A stretch of 64,000 nucleotides of DNA, from contig NZ_OY776488.1 in assembly GCF_963675635.1 (NCBI RefSeq), positions 1,773,501 through 1,837,500 on the forward strand, given 5' to 3'. Positions 2,777 to 9,450 of the stretch are shown here, in pieces. The stretch's first letter is position 1. Each line of letters opens with the position of its first letter. Origin of the DNA: an uncultured Pseudodesulfovibrio sp. (GTDB lineage: Bacteria > Desulfobacterota > Desulfovibrionia > Desulfovibrionales > Desulfovibrionaceae). The notes under the pieces are model-generated. The model made no database searches. It was given only the letters and a program-made list of their open reading frames with translations, and was not told where the DNA came from. The position numbers and the translations under genes were made by a program.

Positions 2777-3574
2777 ATGCACATTGGTAAAGCTATCAGA
2801 CTGGAAAGGATCTTCAATCGGAACACTGGTCGAACTATCGTCGTCCCCATGGATCATGGCGTGACTGTCGGCCCCATTGACGGACTTGTCGACATGCGTG
2901 AGGCCGTAGGCAAAGTCGTTGACGGCGGCGCCAACGCGGTAATCGAACATAAAGGCCTGGTCCGCTGCGGTCACCGAGCTCAAGGCAAGGATATCGGGCT
3001 TATCGTCCATCTTTCGGCCTCCACATCGCTGTCCCCCTTCCCCAACGCCAAAACACTGGTCGCCAGTGTGGAAGACGCCGTCCGTCTCGGCGCAGACGCT
3101 GTGTCCATCCACTGCAACCTCGGCGACGAAACCGAAGCAGCCATGCTCAACGACTTCGGCAAAATTTCTTCTGACGCGGCAAACTGGGGCATGCCCCTTC
3201 TGGCCATGGTCTACGCTCGCGGCCCCAAGGTTTCCGACGAATACGCAGCCGACGTTGTAGCCCATTGCGCCCGTGTCGGCACCGAACTCGGCGCGGACGT
3301 CGTGAAGGTTCCTTACACCGGCAACATAGACACCTTTGCCCGTGTATGCGATTCATGTTGTGTCCCCGTTGTCATCGCAGGCGGCCCGAAACTTGACAGT
3401 ACCGAGGCATTCCTTCAGATGGTTCATGATTCTCTGGAAGCTGGTGGCGCGGGATTGTCCGTCGGCCGCAACGTGTTCCAGCATGATAATCCGACCCGTC
3501 TGGTCGAAGCGCTGAACATGGTCGTGCACGGAGATGAAACCGTGGAAGCCGCTCTCAATCATCTCAATGGATAA
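2777..3574 (+). CDS. 2-amino-3,7-dideoxy-D-threo-hept-6-ulosonate synthase (DhnA-type aldolase)
   Basis: The 265-residue protein belongs to the DhnA/class I fructose-bisphosphate aldolase-like family. In the archaeal-type shikimate entry it condenses L-aspartate semialdehyde with a 6-deoxy-5-ketofructose phosphate to give the precursor of 3-dehydroquinate, replacing DAHP synthase. Family signatures include [11 protein letters not shown] near residue 24, the Schiff-base lysine region [11 protein letters not shown] near 175, and the phosphate-binding IAGGPK and [16 protein letters not shown] lies six bases before the ATG. It is the first enzyme gene of the operon and is directly followed by 3-dehydroquinate synthase II, its pathway partner, which makes the assignment firm over a plain aldolase. 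Confidence 0.92.
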
Positions 3575-3586
3575 TGGTAGCGAACA

Positions 3587-4570
3587 ATGAAAAAAGTCAT
3601 CTTCAAGTCCGTCCCCTTTGACAAGAATCTCGTCACCCTTGCCCTTGAGTCGGGTGTGGACGCCGTGATGGTCGAAAAGGACCATGTCAAGGCGGTTCAA
3701 TCCCTGGGCCGCGTCACGGTCATCACTCCAGAAGACATGCCCGTGGTCGAATTGACCAAGAAGGCCGACGAAGACGTCGCCATCAAAGGCATACGGGACG
3801 GCAAGGACGTCGTTCTCAAAAAGGGGTGGGAAATCATCCCGGTCGAGAACATCCTTGCACAGGTGGACACTCTGGCACTCGAATGCGAATCTCTGGACCG
3901 GGCCGTACTGGCCGCAGGTATTCTGGAACGCGGCTGTGACACTGTAGTCGTGCTGCCCGAAGGCGTATCCGACCTCAAGCAGATCGTCTCCGAACTCAAA
4001 CTCTCGCAGGGAACCATGGACCTCCAAACCGCCGAAGTGACCGAGATTGAATCCACCGGCCTGGGCCACCGTGTTTGCGTGGACACCATTTCCGTATTGA
4101 AAAAAGGCCAGGGCATGCTCATCGGCAACTCCTCGGCCTTTTCTTTCCTTGTCCACGCCGAAACCGAATCCAATCCATATGTCGCCGCCCGCCCCTTCCG
4201 CATCAATGCGGGAGCCGTGCATGCCTATGCCCAGATGCCGGGCGACAAGACCACCTATCTTGATGAACTCGGTGCAGGTGACGACGTGCTCATCGTCGGC
4301 GCCGACGGTGCCACCAGCATCGCCACAGTAGGCCGTGTCAAGGTCGAAGTCCGCCCCATGCTGCTCATCAAGGCCGCAGTCAGGACCAAGGAAGGCGTCA
4401 AGGAAGGTCAGGTATTTCTCCAAAATGCCGAAACTATCCGCGTCGTTTCGGACAAAGGCGAGCCGGTATCCGTCGTCACCCTCAAAGTCGGCGACAAAAT
4501 CATGGTCAAAACAGATGAAGCCGGCCGACACTTCGGCATGCGCATCACGGAAGAAATCAAGGAAGCCTAA
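3587..4570 (+). CDS. 3-dehydroquinate synthase II
   Basis: The 327-residue protein matches the archaeal-type 3-dehydroquinate synthase (AroB-prime family). It oxidatively deaminates and cyclises 2-amino-3,7-dideoxyheptulosonate with NAD+ to 3-dehydroquinate. Family features include the N-terminal KSVPFDKNLVTLALESG, the central LGHRVCVDTISVLKKGQGMLIGN (split here by position, about residues 150-172) and the SFLVHAE and RPFRINAGAVHAY segments. It has no similarity to ordinary AroB. It follows the heptulosonate synthase by 12 bases, with only a weak ribosome site, suggesting coupled translation. The pair supplies all shikimate for the downstream pheA, tyrA and trp genes. Confidence 0.92.
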   Translation: MKKVIFKSVPFDKNLVTLALESGVDAVMVEKDHVKAVQSLGRVTVITPEDMPVVELTKKADEDVAIKGIRDGKDVVLKKGWEIIPVENILAQVDTLALECESLDRAVLAAGILERGCDTVVVLPEGVSDLKQIVSELKLSQGTMDLQTAEVTEIESTGLGHRVCVDTISVLKKGQGMLIGNSSAFSFLVHAETESNPYVAARPFRINAGAVHAYAQMPGDKTTYLDELGAGDDVLIVGADGATSIATVGRVKVEVRPMLLIKAAVRTKEGVKEGQVFLQNAETIRVVSDKGEPVSVVTLKVGDKIMVKTDEAGRHFGMRITEEIKEA

Positions 4571-4585
4571 GCTTCGGAGAACGTC

Positions 4586-5686
4586 ATGGCAGACAAAGAC
4601 CACAACGATATTCCCGATCTCGGCGAACTGCGGGAGTCCATAGACTCCGTGGATCAACAAATCGTGGACCTGCTCAACAAACGGGCGAACCTGAGCCTCG
4701 GCGTGGGCCGGTACAAGGCATCCAAGGGTGAGCCTATCTACAAGCCGTTCCGCGAACAGGAAGTCATGAACAAAATCGCGGATTCCAGCCCGGGCCCACT
4801 CCCGGACAAGCATCTGCGCACCATCTATCGCGAAATCATGAGTTCTTCGCGACACCTGCAACGCCCCGAACGCGTGGTCTACCTCGGTCCTGAAGGCACC
4901 TTCTCCTATTTCGCCGCCATCGAGCACATGGGCAGTGCCGCATCCCTGACTCCCAAAGCCAATTTTGAGGAAATTTTCCGGGCCGTGGCCGAGGAAGGGG
5001 CCGAACTCGGCGTCATTCCGCTGGAAAACACCATTGAAGGCACTGTAGGACAAGTCGTTGACCTGTTCATGAAATATAAGGTCTACATCCAGGCCGAAGT
5101 CTTTAGCCGCATAAGCCATTCCCTCATGTCCAAGGCCGAATCACTTGAGGACGTGGAAGTCATTTACTCCCACCCCCAACCGCTCGGCCAATGCCGCGAC
5201 TGGTTACGCACCCATCTGCCGAATGTTCCGACCATCCCCATGGAGTCAACGGCAGAAGCCGCCGAATTGGTCGCAGGCAAAAAAGCCGCCGCCGTTATCG
5301 GACATATCAAACTGGCGGACATGCATGCCATGAACGTGCTTGCGCAATCCATCGAAGACCTGCCTGACAACTGGACACGATTCCTGATCATTGGAGCAGC
5401 TCCTTCACAGGAAGACCGGCGCGACAAGACAAGCATACTTTTCACCCTGCCTGATAAGCCGGGCGCACTTGCACGCGTGTTGACCACTCTGGCTCATCAG
5501 GGCATCAACATGACCAAACTGGAGTCCCGCCCGTTCAGAGGTGAAAAATGGAAATACGTCTTCTTCACCGACCTTGAATGTGATTTGAGCGGAGACCGAT
5601 ACAAAGACGTTCTTGAGGACATTCGCCAGCAATGCCATACTCTGCGCGTCCTTGGCACATACCCTACCCAGGAGAACAGATCATGA
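4586..5686 (+). CDS. pheA: Bifunctional chorismate mutase / prephenate dehydratase
   Basis: This 366-residue P-protein converts chorismate to prephenate and then to phenylpyruvate, the route to phenylalanine. Residues about 10-95 form an AroQ-type chorismate mutase helix bundle (LRESIDSVDQQIVDLLNKRA). Residues about 98-275 are the prephenate dehydratase, starting VYLGPEGTFSYFAA. The C-terminus is an ACT domain with KTSILFTLPDKPGAL and the ESRP motif (KLESRPF) that binds Phe for feedback inhibition. GGAG precedes the ATG. Its stop codon overlaps the aroA start by four bases. Confidence 0.96.
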   Translation: MADKDHNDIPDLGELRESIDSVDQQIVDLLNKRANLSLGVGRYKASKGEPIYKPFREQEVMNKIADSSPGPLPDKHLRTIYREIMSSSRHLQRPERVVYLGPEGTFSYFAAIEHMGSAASLTPKANFEEIFRAVAEEGAELGVIPLENTIEGTVGQVVDLFMKYKVYIQAEVFSRISHSLMSKAESLEDVEVIYSHPQPLGQCRDWLRTHLPNVPTIPMESTAEAAELVAGKKAAAVIGHIKLADMHAMNVLAQSIEDLPDNWTRFLIIGAAPSQEDRRDKTSILFTLPDKPGALARVLTTLAHQGINMTKLESRPFRGEKWKYVFFTDLECDLSGDRYKDVLEDIRQQCHTLRVLGTYPTQENRS

Positions 5687-7023
5687 GCAAAGAACCGATT
5701 ATCATCAACGCCCCGGCCAGCAAGTCGCTGTCGCACCGCACACTCATTGCCGCAGCATTGGCCAACGGCGTATCCGAGATTTCCTCCATTCTGGACTCCG
5801 ACGACATCACCCGCACACGAGGTTGCCTGACAGCCTGCGGCGCGAACATCGTCGAGCAGGACGGGAAACTGATTGTCACCGGCATGGAATCCGGCCCCAA
5901 GGGCGGCAATGCCGACGGCAAACACAAGGACGAAGAGCCACACGAACTGTTCATGCACGAATCCGGAACCACCTGCCGACTGATGACTGCCGTTGCTGCA
6001 GCCGGGCATGGTTCCTTCAAGGTGCACGGTGCCCAGCGCATGCACGAACGACCCATGGCCGAATTGGTGGCAGCCCTGAAAAATCTCGGCTCCACCTTCG
6101 ATTTTGCTGAAAAAGAAGGGCACCTCCCCTTTATCATGACCAGTAAAGGCTACACTGCGAAAACAGTGGAAATAACTCTGGAAGAAAGCAGCCAATACCT
6201 CTCCGGACTGCTCCTGGGTGCGCCTTTAGCTGACCATGAGACACGTATCACCGTGACAGGAAAAAAAGCCGTATCTTGGCCGTACGTGGCCCTGACCCTT
6301 CGTATCATGGAAGATTTCAAGGTAGGATTCGAAGTCGAAATCAAGAAAGGCAACAAGTGGCAGGCCGTCCCATGGCGCTCCGTCAAAGTTGTCTCGCCGG
6401 GCAAAATCCGCTTCATCGTCAAGCCAACGGGCTACGACCCCACCCACTATCGAGTGGAAGGCGACTGGTCCAACGCCAGCTATTTTCTGGCTGCCGGAGC
6501 TGTGGGCAGACGCCCTGTGCTCATCAAGGGACTGGCCGCAGATTCACTCCAGGGTGACCGGGCTATCATGGACATTCTCAGTCAGATGGGTGCGTCCATC
6601 AAGGTCACCTTCAGCGGCATCCTCGTGGAGCCAAGCACTCTGCGCGGCGTGACCGTGGACATGAGCCGCTGCCCGGATCTGGTCCCGACAGTATCCGCTG
6701 CCGCTGCTTTCGCGACCTCGCCGACCACTATCACTAACGTGGCCCATCTGCGCATCAAGGAAACCGACCGTCTGGAAGCCTGCGCAATGGAAGTGGGCCG
6801 CACCGAGACTGAGACAGAAATCGTTGACGATTCGATCATCATTCGCCCCGGCAAACTGCGCAACGGACACAGCATAGACTTCACAACGTACGGCGACCAC
6901 CGCATGGCCATGTCCATGTCCCTTTTCCAACTGGCAGGCATTGATGTCATTCTGGACAACCCCGACTGCGTCAACAAATCATTCCCCGGATTCTGGAAGG
7001 AATGGAAGAAGATCACCGGATAG
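5683..7023 (+). CDS. aroA: 3-phosphoshikimate 1-carboxyvinyltransferase (EPSP synthase)
   Basis: The 446-residue enzyme joins shikimate 3-phosphate and phosphoenolpyruvate in the step before chorismate. It shows NAPASKSLSHR near the N-terminus (substrate-binding SKS-R), HESGTTCRLM (the GTxxR-like PEP region), KETDRL, and the C-terminal YGDHRMAM. I chose ATG 5683, which overlaps the pheA stop as ATGA and has AGGAGA just upstream, over an in-frame ATG 17 codons earlier inside pheA. Length is normal for the family. Its place between pheA and tyrA is typical of this operon type. Confidence 0.96.
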   Translation: MSKEPIIINAPASKSLSHRTLIAAALANGVSEISSILDSDDITRTRGCLTACGANIVEQDGKLIVTGMESGPKGGNADGKHKDEEPHELFMHESGTTCRLMTAVAAAGHGSFKVHGAQRMHERPMAELVAALKNLGSTFDFAEKEGHLPFIMTSKGYTAKTVEITLEESSQYLSGLLLGAPLADHETRITVTGKKAVSWPYVALTLRIMEDFKVGFEVEIKKGNKWQAVPWRSVKVVSPGKIRFIVKPTGYDPTHYRVEGDWSNASYFLAAGAVGRRPVLIKGLAADSLQGDRAIMDILSQMGASIKVTFSGILVEPSTLRGVTVDMSRCPDLVPTVSAAAAFATSPTTITNVAHLRIKETDRLEACAMEVGRTETETEIVDDSIIIRPGKLRNGHSIDFTTYGDHRMAMSMSLFQLAGIDVILDNPDCVNKSFPGFWKEWKKITG

Positions 7024-7027
7024 TATC

Positions 7028-7798
7028 ATGACAGTGGCAGGTATACATAGAATCGCCATTGCAGGTGCAAACGGCCAGATGGGCGGGCTTTTTTCCAAAG
7101 CCTTCACCGATCTCGGGTGCACTGTCGTGCCGTTGGACCTGCCATACTCCACAGAGGCAATCCAGACGGCGTTGACCGACTGCGACCTGCTTCTGCTCAG
7201 TGTCCCGGTGACAGCCATGGAATCCGTGCTTGACCAGATGGTGCCGCACTTGAACGGGACCACGATCCTGTGCGATATCGGCTCGGTCAAGATGCTCCCC
7301 ATGAAGGCCATGGTGGAGCGATATGACGGGCCTGTGGTCGGGACACACCCGCTCTTTGGTCCAATAATACCTGACGGATTCGCACCCAGAGTCGCCATTG
7401 CGCCTGGACGTGAGACCGATGCAGATGCCGCATACAGAATAACACAACTCATGCAGGCGTGCGGCTACGAATGTTTCTCGACGACAGCCGAAAAACACGA
7501 CAGGTCCATGGCCTTTGTCCAGGGGCTGAATTTCACGTCCACCGTGGCTTTTCTAGCCGCTGCCCGGGATGTGGAAGGTATCGACAACTTCATTACCCCT
7601 TCATTCAAGCGCAGATTGGACTCTGCACATAAGATGCTCACGCAGGATACGGAACTGTTTGAAATAATTTCCGAATCAAACCCGTTTCTTCAGGAAGTCA
7701 ATCGCAAATTCATGTCCTACCTCAGCCTGGCAGCAGGCGGTGATCTCGATCTGCTCGCAGACCGGGCTCAGTGGTGGTGGCGTAACGAAACTGTATAG
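7028..7798 (+). CDS. tyrA: Prephenate dehydrogenase, whose last codons form a Trp sensor
   Basis: The 256-residue protein is a TyrA-family NAD(P)-dependent dehydrogenase that takes prephenate (or arogenate) toward tyrosine. It has an N-terminal Rossmann motif IAGANGQMGGLF and the family motifs CDIGSVK and GTHPLFGP. I chose ATG 7028, four bases after aroA, rather than an in-frame start inside aroA. No ACT domain is present. The C-terminus is unusual: it ends AQWWWRNETV, with three consecutive TGG codons at 7772-7780, six codons before the stop. These sit just upstream of competing hairpins before trpE and are proposed to act as the leader segment of a trp attenuator (see separate entry). Confidence 0.93.
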   Translation: MTVAGIHRIAIAGANGQMGGLFSKAFTDLGCTVVPLDLPYSTEAIQTALTDCDLLLLSVPVTAMESVLDQMVPHLNGTTILCDIGSVKMLPMKAMVERYDGPVVGTHPLFGPIIPDGFAPRVAIAPGRETDADAAYRITQLMQACGYECFSTTAEKHDRSMAFVQGLNFTSTVAFLAAARDVEGIDNFITPSFKRRLDSAHKMLTQDTELFEIISESNPFLQEVNRKFMSYLSLAAGGDLDLLADRAQWWWRNETV

Positions 7799-7874
7799 AT
7801 GGTGCGGCTCATGCCGTTACTTGGAACTGAACGTAAACCAAGGCCGCACCCCCAGAAAGGGTACGGCCTTTTTT
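7772..7874 (+). promoter_or_regulatory. Candidate trp attenuator between tyrA and trpE using the tyrA tail as leader
   Basis: Three Trp codons end tyrA (7772-7780; stop 7796-7798). GGTGCGGC 7801-7808 is a perfect complement of GCCGCACC 7843-7850, helped by TTGG 7821-7824 with CCAA 7838-7841: an antiterminator. The terminator pairs AAGGCCG 7840-7846 and ACCC 7848-7851 with GGGT 7859-7862 and CGGCCTT 7864-7870, followed by TTTTTT to 7874. The two share 7840-7850 and exclude each other. CGGC 7805-7808 can also pair with GCCG 7813-7816. A ribosome stalled at the Trp codons would leave 7801-7808 free; one at the stop codon would cover it. The pairings are seen directly; the function is inferred. 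Confidence 0.8.
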
Positions 7875-7889
7875 CATAAGGAGAAGACA

Positions 7890-7904
7890 ATGCAAGGTAC
7901 GTGA
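7890..7904 (+). other. Four-codon open reading frame after the tyrA-trpE terminator
   Basis: AAGGAG at 7878-7883 is followed six bases later by ATG CAA GGT ACG TGA. It is a well-formed ribosome site with a minimal frame (MQGT), 16 bases past the terminator and 88 bases before trpE. It may be a remnant, or a ribosome-loading or stand-by site on the read-through transcript. No function is claimed. Confidence 0.3.
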
Positions 7905-7992
7905 AAGTCATACGAAAACCGAAAAAAAGTGAAGGGCTGGCAGGTTATCCCCCGCCCGCTCAACTAACGGAATTCAACCATAAGGACACATA

Positions 7993-9450
7993 ATGGAAAA
8001 GATTTCACTGACGCAGCACGGGAAGTGGCTCCCGGCTGACGTCCAGACCACCATATCCCTGTATATGGGATTGGTGGGCGACCAACCCGGCATTCTGCTG
8101 GAATCGGCAGAGGTGGATGGTCGCCTTGGCCGATACAGTCTGATCGCCTGGGATTATCGGCTCATGCTTCACCCGGTGGACGGCAAACTAATCGTCGACG
8201 TTGCCGATGACCGCCTTGCCCCACTGAAGGCACTGGAAGGCATGGAGTATCTTACCGGCATCAAGAAAGCCGTGGAGCTACTTTCAATCACCCAGGAGAC
8301 CACCGGCGGCAATGCCCGTGACGGCCTGCCCGGTCTGACTCGCGGACTATACGGCTACTTCGGCTACGGCATGGCCGGAATGTTCGAACGCAAGCTGACC
8401 GAGTGCTGCAAACCGGCTGACGCCGAGGCCTGCCTCGTTCTCCCCGGTCAGTTGGTGCTTTTTGACCACCTGCGTCATTCCTGCTGTTATTTAAGCCTCG
8501 ACGAAGGCGCGACACCCATGCCCGCACCTATCCAATGGGGTGCCGACCTGACCGCTCCCGAGGTCGGGACACCGACGGTCCATCCCGGCAAAGACGAATA
8601 CATGCGCGGCGTGGAACGGTGCAAGGAACTCATTGCCGAGGGCGAATGCATTCAGGTGGTACTATCCACCAGATTCACCGTGCCCCTGCCGGATGAACCA
8701 TTCAAGATTTACCGCCGCCTCAGGCAGGCCAACCCCTCGCCCTTCATGTTCTACATGAAATTCCCGGACTGTCCGTCCATGGGCAAAACCTGCGGCACAA
8801 CCCTACTCGGATCATCCCCTGAAATGATGGTCAGAAGCTCGGCGGGCCATCTCGAAGTGCGGCCCATTGCCGGGACACGCTGGAGAGGCGAAACCGAAAA
8901 GGAAGACATGCGTCTGGAGCAGGAGCTCCTGGCCGACCCCAAGGAACGGGCCGAACACGTCATGCTCGTGGACCTGGGCCGCAACGATCTGGGCCGCATC
9001 TCCAAACCCGGTACGGTTACTGTCGAAAAATTCATGAATGTCGAACGGTTTTCCCACGTCATGCACCTGACCTCATATGTGGAAGGCGAACTCAAGGAAG
9101 GTCTGGACGGCGTGGACGTTCTTCAATCCACCTTTCCGGCAGGCACGCTGTCCGGCGCACCAAAAATCCGGGCCATGGAAATCATCGCCGATCTGGAACC
9201 GCAGGAACGCGGCCCGTACGGAGGGTGTATAGGCTGGATGGGACTGGACGACGGCGTCGTCTCCCTCGATACCGGCATCACCATCAGGTCCATGTGGATT
9301 CGAAACGGCATCTGCCACTGGCAGGCCGGAGCCGGCATCGTTTACGATTCGGACGCAGAATCAGAATGGAACGAGTGTCACAACAAGGCGCGCGTCATTC
9401 TGGAGGTCATCACAGGCAAGGGAGGGACCGATGTTTTTGCTGATAGATAA
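7993..9450 (+). CDS. trpE: Anthranilate synthase component I
   Basis: The 485-residue TrpE makes anthranilate from chorismate with ammonia delivered by TrpG. The N-terminal LLES motif (residues 35-38), part of the tryptophan feedback site, is present, so the enzyme is likely Trp-inhibited. The chorismate-binding domain shows GECIQVVLSTRF, SPEMMVRSSAGHLEVRPIAGTR, and the C-terminal GAPKIRAMEII and GIVYDSDAE-xE motifs. AAGGA precedes the ATG by nine bases. The end overlaps trpG by 20 bases, which couples the two subunits. It heads the trp half of the operon, behind the tyrA-tail attenuator. Confidence 0.97.
   Translation: MEKISLTQHGKWLPADVQTTISLYMGLVGDQPGILLESAEVDGRLGRYSLIAWDYRLMLHPVDGKLIVDVADDRLAPLKALEGMEYLTGIKKAVELLSITQETTGGNARDGLPGLTRGLYGYFGYGMAGMFERKLTECCKPADAEACLVLPGQLVLFDHLRHSCCYLSLDEGATPMPAPIQWGADLTAPEVGTPTVHPGKDEYMRGVERCKELIAEGECIQVVLSTRFTVPLPDEPFKIYRRLRQANPSPFMFYMKFPDCPSMGKTCGTTLLGSSPEMMVRSSAGHLEVRPIAGTRWRGETEKEDMRLEQELLADPKERAEHVMLVDLGRNDLGRISKPGTVTVEKFMNVERFSHVMHLTSYVEGELKEGLDGVDVLQSTFPAGTLSGAPKIRAMEIIADLEPQERGPYGGCIGWMGLDDGVVSLDTGITIRSMWIRNGICHWQAGAGIVYDSDAESEWNECHNKARVILEVITGKGGTDVFADR

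Follow-up and report, generated by a model that had tools for sequence, protein, structure and literature searches.

Downstream of tyrA in an uncultured Pseudodesulfovibrio sp., a transcription terminator separates a gene that ends with a run of Trp codons from trpE, and this arrangement raises the question of whether the 3' end of a complete enzyme gene could act as the leader of a trp attenuator. The comparison of related loci suggests that the tyrA 3' end, with its three Trp codons, very probably doubles as a Trp-sensing leader for the trp genes in the Desulfovibrionales.

Elements of the putative attenuator in the window

The window, that is, the whole stretch of 64,000 nucleotides that was analysed, carries on its plus strand a cluster in which the genes for ADH synthase and DHQ synthase II, pheA and aroA (2777–7023, each scoring above at least one NCBIfam cut-off) lie upstream of tyrA (7028–7798; prephenate dehydrogenase, 256 aa), whose 3' end is the proposed leader reading frame. 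This gene is followed on the same strand by the ORF of trpE (7993–9450), the first gene that would be controlled, and by those of trpG, trpD, trpC, trpF, trpB and trpA, which extend to 14456. TrpE scored 440.9 bits against TIGR00564, under the cut-off of 517.7; in the profile scan trpG, trpD and trpB were above a cut-off and trpC was below its cut-offs, and trpF and trpA were named from gene order and ORF only. The gene order is identical to that of the aro-trp supraoperon of Desulfovibrio vulgaris as given in PMC1173090. In contrast to the site considered here, the attenuator predicted for that supraoperon is placed before aroA', its first gene, and not between tyrA and trpE (Table 7 of the same source, PMC1173090).

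TyrA matched PF02153 (PDH_N) with 55.9 bits, above the cut-off; its NCBIfam matches are prephenate dehydrogenases, every one of them under its curated cut-off, and the protein is 85% identical to that of Pseudodesulfovibrio sp. OB3, the comparison with named relatives putting the window within or close to this genus. The 3' end of the gene reads ...DRAQWWWRNETV, which gives the protein tail WWW-RNETV-stop. The three consecutive Trp codons noted by the first-pass annotation near the end of tyrA, which are the proposed sensor, are TGG TGG TGG at 7772–7780 (plus strand, codons 249–251), the third being the sixth codon before the stop TAG (7796–7798), where a ribosome would mask the antiterminator strand according to a footprint model.

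The same annotation had pointed out that GGTGCGGC (7801–7808) is complementary to a stretch of the terminator; it is the exact reverse complement of GCCGCACC (7843–7850), and the helix reaches nine pairs, 7801–7809 (GGTGCGGCT, the putative antiterminator 5' strand, plus strand) with 7842–7850, with a U-G as its last pair and a pairing energy of −19.1 kcal/mol. The strand begins 20 nt after the Trp codons. By itself, the pairing in the window is only modestly unusual (p = 0.015 vs shuffles); the fold of 7755–7880 is not more stable than shuffles (z = −0.12), and that of 7799–7880 gave z = −2.22. The main weight of evidence lies in the related loci described below. The predicted fold of this last region includes a small local hairpin (7801–7821, plus strand) that could sequester the antiterminator strand once the ribosome has been released. 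The terminator claimed at 7840–7874, before trpE, is plain on the plus strand and consists of a hairpin (7840–7870, −17.5 kcal/mol), which contains one internal C-A mismatch and whose left arm (7840–7851) is common to the antiterminator, and of a tract of six T (7869–7874). A simple terminator scan called the 7840–7870 stem just on the minus strand; the likely reason is that the C-A mismatch turns there into an allowed G-T pair.

We consider it highly likely that the locus contains a ribosome-mediated transcription attenuator of the trp genes in which the final part of the full-length tyrA serves as leader. When Trp is plentiful, the ribosome would pass the Trp codons and reach the tyrA stop, masking 7801–7809, so that 7840–7851 would fold with 7859–7870 and transcription would stop at about 7874. 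A shortage of Trp-tRNA would stall the ribosome at 7772–7780 and leave 7801–7809 unmasked; this strand would take 7842–7850 before the right arm is made, and the polymerase would continue into trpEGDCFBA. The upstream aro genes, pheA and tyrA would be transcribed in either state. We infer here the coupling of transcription and translation, the stalling of the ribosome and the response to Trp.

Distribution, spacing and covariation in the Desulfovibrionales

TyrA matches were detected in 58 of 60 relatives, in 187 of the 199 genomes of the order and in 230 of the 296 genomes of the phylum. The survey counted 157 loci of the order, taken from roughly 200 order genomes with a TyrA match, and in these loci the parts of the device (the unit running from the Trp codons to the terminator), their conservation, spacing and co-variation were observed directly. 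The full device is present in 95 loci; seven have tyrA and trpE linked without the device, in nine the two genes overlap, in 44 no trpE was found in the downstream stretch, and two (L014 and L155) are contig-end cases, which are within the 157 and outside the counts of loci with and without the device. Left out of the 157 were L115 and L125 (no motif found), L126 (the same gene as L125) and L080–L096 (outside the order). The loci share relatedness: the window is among them as L001, and L002–L004 are near-copies of one another. L044 (WWF) was scored manually as carrying the first Trp, and the starts of trpE were extrapolated from the alignment to the TrpE of the window.

Among the examined loci in which tyrA and trpE are 60 nt or more apart, the device was found in 95 of 102, window included, and in six families. 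A T-run hairpin is present in 97 of these 102 linked loci, including L174 and L181, which have just WW and an odd placement and were excluded from the 95. The tail is WWW in 94 of the device loci and WWF in one (L044). The device was also seen, among 80 named loci that come partly from the same genomes as the survey loci, in Pseudodesulfovibrio, Humidesulfovibrio, Salidesulfovibrio, Nitratidesulfovibrio, Halodesulfovibrio, Desulfomicrobium, Desulfonauticus and Desulfonatronovibrio; in the same set no device was found in Solidesulfovibrio, where tyrA and trpE overlap by 4 nt and the tail is AWW, nor in the one locus of Fundidesulfovibrio (tail GWW). Elsewhere in the phylum, 17 TyrA loci outside the order (L080–L096), a sample of about 217 non-order genomes with a TyrA match, have no WWW among their 30 C-terminal residues, and the downstream stretches examined yielded no trpE (those of L086 and L096 are cut short).

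Several loci depart from the common layout. L130 and L136, and also L228 and L240, have WWW and the tyrA-trpE linkage with no T-run terminator in the expected place; possibly the terminator has been lost or is of another kind. At L070, L071, L164–L166, L171 and L175, tyrA and trpE overlap by 1–4 nt and the tail is AWW or TWW, and attenuation may have been replaced there by translational coupling. In L009, L016, L018, L038 and L042 the gap is enlarged downstream of the terminator by inserted-looking or short-repeat DNA, and despite this the unit from the Trp codons to the terminator is intact.

In the 95 device loci, the antiterminator starts 7–22 nt (median 16) and the terminator 39–78 nt (median 60) past the last Trp codon, and the stop codon lies 6–42 nt past it. 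Because the distances of the antiterminator and the terminator are kept while the stop floats, the parts are anchored to the Trp codons. In loci with a late stop, the antiterminator strand is inside tyrA and encodes glycine-rich ends such as GGP.

The pairing of the antiterminator strand with its own terminator arm is significant (p < 0.05, dinucleotide shuffles) in 88 of the 95 loci taken individually and misses this level in seven. The mean pairing energy of a locus's own strands is −22.8 kcal/mol vs −17.7 (sd 0.32) when partners are permuted among loci, and none of 5,000 permutations was as good as the observed mean, either with all 95 loci or with the 82 that have distinct terminator arms; the relatedness of the loci remains in this test, though near relatives are among the permuted partners. 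Within 26 loci of the Pseudodesulfovibrio group, 95.0% of the cells of the antiterminator helix and 96.5% of those of the terminator helix are paired, and three and four pairs, respectively, have both of their bases changed. Compared with most of its genus, L006 has changes in each of the three arms that match one another. From 6 to 17 bases of the left arm per locus pair in both states. The covarying stems that the first-pass annotation had named as possible support are found in relatives from six families, as mutually exclusive pairings that co-vary. Together with the geometry, these pairings and their covariation agree with trp attenuation in which the tyrA end would be the leader, and so support the reading of that annotation.

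The first Trp of the run is present in all 95 loci with the device vs 33 of 60 without it (two of seven linked, one of nine overlapping, and 30 of the 44 with no trpE found downstream). It is missing from five of the seven linked loci that lack the device; L130, L136 and L147, either linked or overlapping, have kept WWW with the device absent. Linkage to the device is thus seen for the first Trp; the second and third are for the most part conserved in the protein, also where there is no attenuator. The last Trp position is occupied by F or L in five device-less loci of the 157, and by F in L044, where the device is present. On a FastTree phylogeny of TyrA, in which several long branches are joined, the device changes eight times and the first Trp nine times; five independent pairs on supported branches gave a mean of 2.6 in the expected direction, 0 in the opposite one and 2.4 with no difference, and with a median p of 0.25, not significant on that tree, the association between the device and the first Trp is suggestive.

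The footprint model indicated that a stalled ribosome leaves 85–100% of the antiterminator strand free, and that a ribosome at the stop masks at least half of the paired strand in 93 of the 95 loci (the exceptions are L037 and L132). Before the right arm exists, the modelled probability of the antiterminator is 0.52–1.00 (median 0.92) across the 95 loci. At full-length equilibrium, the terminator is favoured in both modelled states at most loci, and the two states are separated by more than 0.3 in 14 of the 95 and not in the other 81. Since equilibrium mostly fails to separate the states, the switch must be kinetic, set while the polymerase moves, as happens in classical attenuation. A cryptic Trp-rich leader read in a different frame was rejected, as only five of the 95 loci have a competing WW frame just before the terminator.

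Trp-rich tails without trpE and alternative explanations

According to the first-pass annotation, Trp-rich TyrA tails in species where tyrA is not next to trpE would refute the attenuator. Such tails are common, WWW being retained in 30 of the 44 loci with no trpE found downstream; WWW alone is therefore no evidence of the device, and it was rejected as a sufficient sign. In the large genus g15, WWW is mostly kept in TyrA and trpE lies elsewhere in the genomes searched. The attenuator reading survives because many of these trpE genes have a tandem-Trp leader of their own with like spacing. Of the upstream regions of detached trpE, from g15 and a few other genomes, 15 of 23 (14 of 22 unlinked plus L061) contain a short ORF with tandem Trp codons, an antiterminator and a terminator, and in them the stop, the terminator and the antiterminator are found 33–36, 59–69 and 4–16 nt after the Trp codons, respectively; for eight of the 22 unlinked trpE genes, no tandem-Trp leader was found within the 450 nt searched. 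The presence of these leaders indicates that the device exists in a free form where it is not fused to tyrA.

The free leaders (e.g., L188 and L191) are like the tyrA device in their tandem Trp codons and similar spacing, but unlike the tyrA-tail form they are short peptides upstream of an unlinked trpE. Eight of them have the tail GWWWR....GGDVRA, with the antiterminator 12–15 nt and the terminator 62–67 nt after the Trp codons. The DNA of four free leaders matches that of TyrA tails at 17–20 of 36 nt (chance 0.005–0.12), and a descent of the free leaders from the TyrA tail is only suggested by this likeness. At L061, a detached trpE is preceded, at about 1006–1420, by what appear to be two free Trp leaders in tandem, both of which have WWW and a hairpin resembling a terminator; the start of the first is beyond the 450-nt search window, and the systematic search recovered only the second.

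These data also bear on the explanation that the Trp run is a structural part of the last helix of TyrA and that the terminator is an ordinary, unregulated one that lowers trp expression, with no sensing of Trp. Alignments of 16 and of 41 TyrAs show no variation at W250 and W251, which fall within the predicted final helix (residues 249–255) of a structure model whose mean pLDDT is 92 for residues 241–250 and 69 for residues 251–256, and a structural role would agree with the WWW tails of the 30 loci mentioned above; it leaves unexplained, however, a co-varying strand that competes with the terminator, the distance that this strand keeps to the Trp codons while the stop floats, and the tandem-Trp leaders that stand free before a detached trpE. 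For these reasons, we consider this explanation very unlikely.

Control of pyrE by the rph-pyrE attenuator depends on the distance to the stop codon, and tandem regulatory codons are not known to play a part in it. By comparison, this type is not matched by the tyrA loci, where the spacing is constrained relative to the Trp codons and not relative to the stop. A real attenuator that answers translation of the tyrA end generally, as in rph-pyrE, and not Trp-tRNA specifically, would find a parallel in E. coli, in which pyrE expression is believed to be set by where the rph stop lies with respect to the attenuator (PMC2784333), but we give it very little credence given that the stop varies by 36 nt with the Trp-codon distance kept, and that the first Trp accompanies the device in 95 of 95 loci vs 33 of 60 without it. 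Finally, it is scarcely credible that the terminator closes an aro-pheA-tyrA operon and that trpE uses its own promoter in the gap: there is space for one in the window (118 nt from the T tract to trpE) and in a tenth of the 95 loci, where the stretch behind the hairpin exceeds 225 nt, but a scan with the sigma-70 consensus alone found no plus-strand promoter-like site in 7369–8700, and in 35 of the 95 loci the hairpin ends at most 40 nt from trpE, which leaves little room for a promoter and implies that trpE is served by readthrough.

Comparison with known attenuators and the remainder of the gap

The putative tyrA-tail attenuator resembles the trpL attenuator of E. coli, whose layout was used for comparison, in having tandem Trp codons, a nearby stop, an antiterminator and a terminator that share one arm, and trpE as the target; it differs from trpL in that the leader is a 256-codon enzyme gene and not a short dedicated peptide. 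Leaders controlled by TRAP are characterized by (G/U)AG repeats. Neither the Rfam Trp_leader model (RF00513) nor the T-box model had a match in the window at the gathering score, or in 7600–8100 at E values up to 10, and the sole Rfam match listed for 7600–8100 is to a different family and far below its gathering score; without a covariance-model match, an identity with the Rfam trp leader or the T-box was rejected.

In teaching, amino-acid attenuators are presented as having a short leader peptide that serves no other purpose. The mechanism proposed for tyrA would be classical ribosome-mediated attenuation, and what would be new is the location of amino-acid-sensing codons at the end of a full-length enzyme gene. 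The first-pass annotation had regarded the use of a full-length gene as leader as a distinct design. This holds in part: E. coli rph-pyrE is a precedent in which the leader is a full-length upstream gene and translation of the gene end bears on the attenuator (PMC2784333), but the precedent is UTP-responsive (title of Bonekamp 1984, cited in PMC2784333) and does not sense an amino acid. In the literature searched (open-licence PMC, partial), we found no enzyme gene whose terminal codons sense an amino acid, no description of a trp attenuator in a tyrA tail, and none of this kind described in the Desulfovibrionales.

If the attenuator reading is true, the sensor is carried by a full-length enzyme gene and is conserved over much of a bacterial order, and the Tyr and Trp branches are linked at the codon level. 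As a more tentative extension, which we would not yet count on, the tyrA tail could be a two-way switch, in which the stalled ribosome leaves TyrA unfinished and the trp genes on, and which was later freed as a short leader in genomes of the Desulfovibrio group. A shortage of Trp-tRNA would then stall the ribosome with a few codons of tyrA still unread, so that less prephenate would go to tyrosine, and the same stall would turn the trp genes on and direct chorismate to tryptophan; the C-terminus of TyrA would itself be the tryptophan sensor, and the relocation of the trp operon would have turned the detached tail into a short trp leader of the ordinary type. The fused and free forms offer a natural comparison of one device, and searches for leader peptides would miss attenuators that are hidden in upstream genes.

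The gap contains one more feature, located between the attenuator and trpE, a 25-codon frame (7890–7967, plus strand) that is preceded by a strong ribosome site and whose fifth codon is an in-frame TGA (MQGT-TGA-KSYENRKKVKGWQVIPRPLN). Matches to this frame were found in 19 of the 199 genomes of the order, all from the genus of the window and all with the TGA, and of 30 scanned loci of the genus, 23 have the frame at full length, five have it in reduced form and two lack it. After the TGA, the 23 full-length frames show 1802 synonymous vs 895 other pairwise codon differences. SelB is above the cut-off in the genome of the window; the frame had no Pfam match, and no strong stem was found after the TGA in six folds. 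It is a candidate for a tiny selenopeptide or for a peptide produced by TGA read-through. In L008, L009, L014, L016 and L018, only the start of the frame survives (ATG, two codons, ACR TGA AAG) and the remainder is unlike, hinting at a separate constraint on its first codons.
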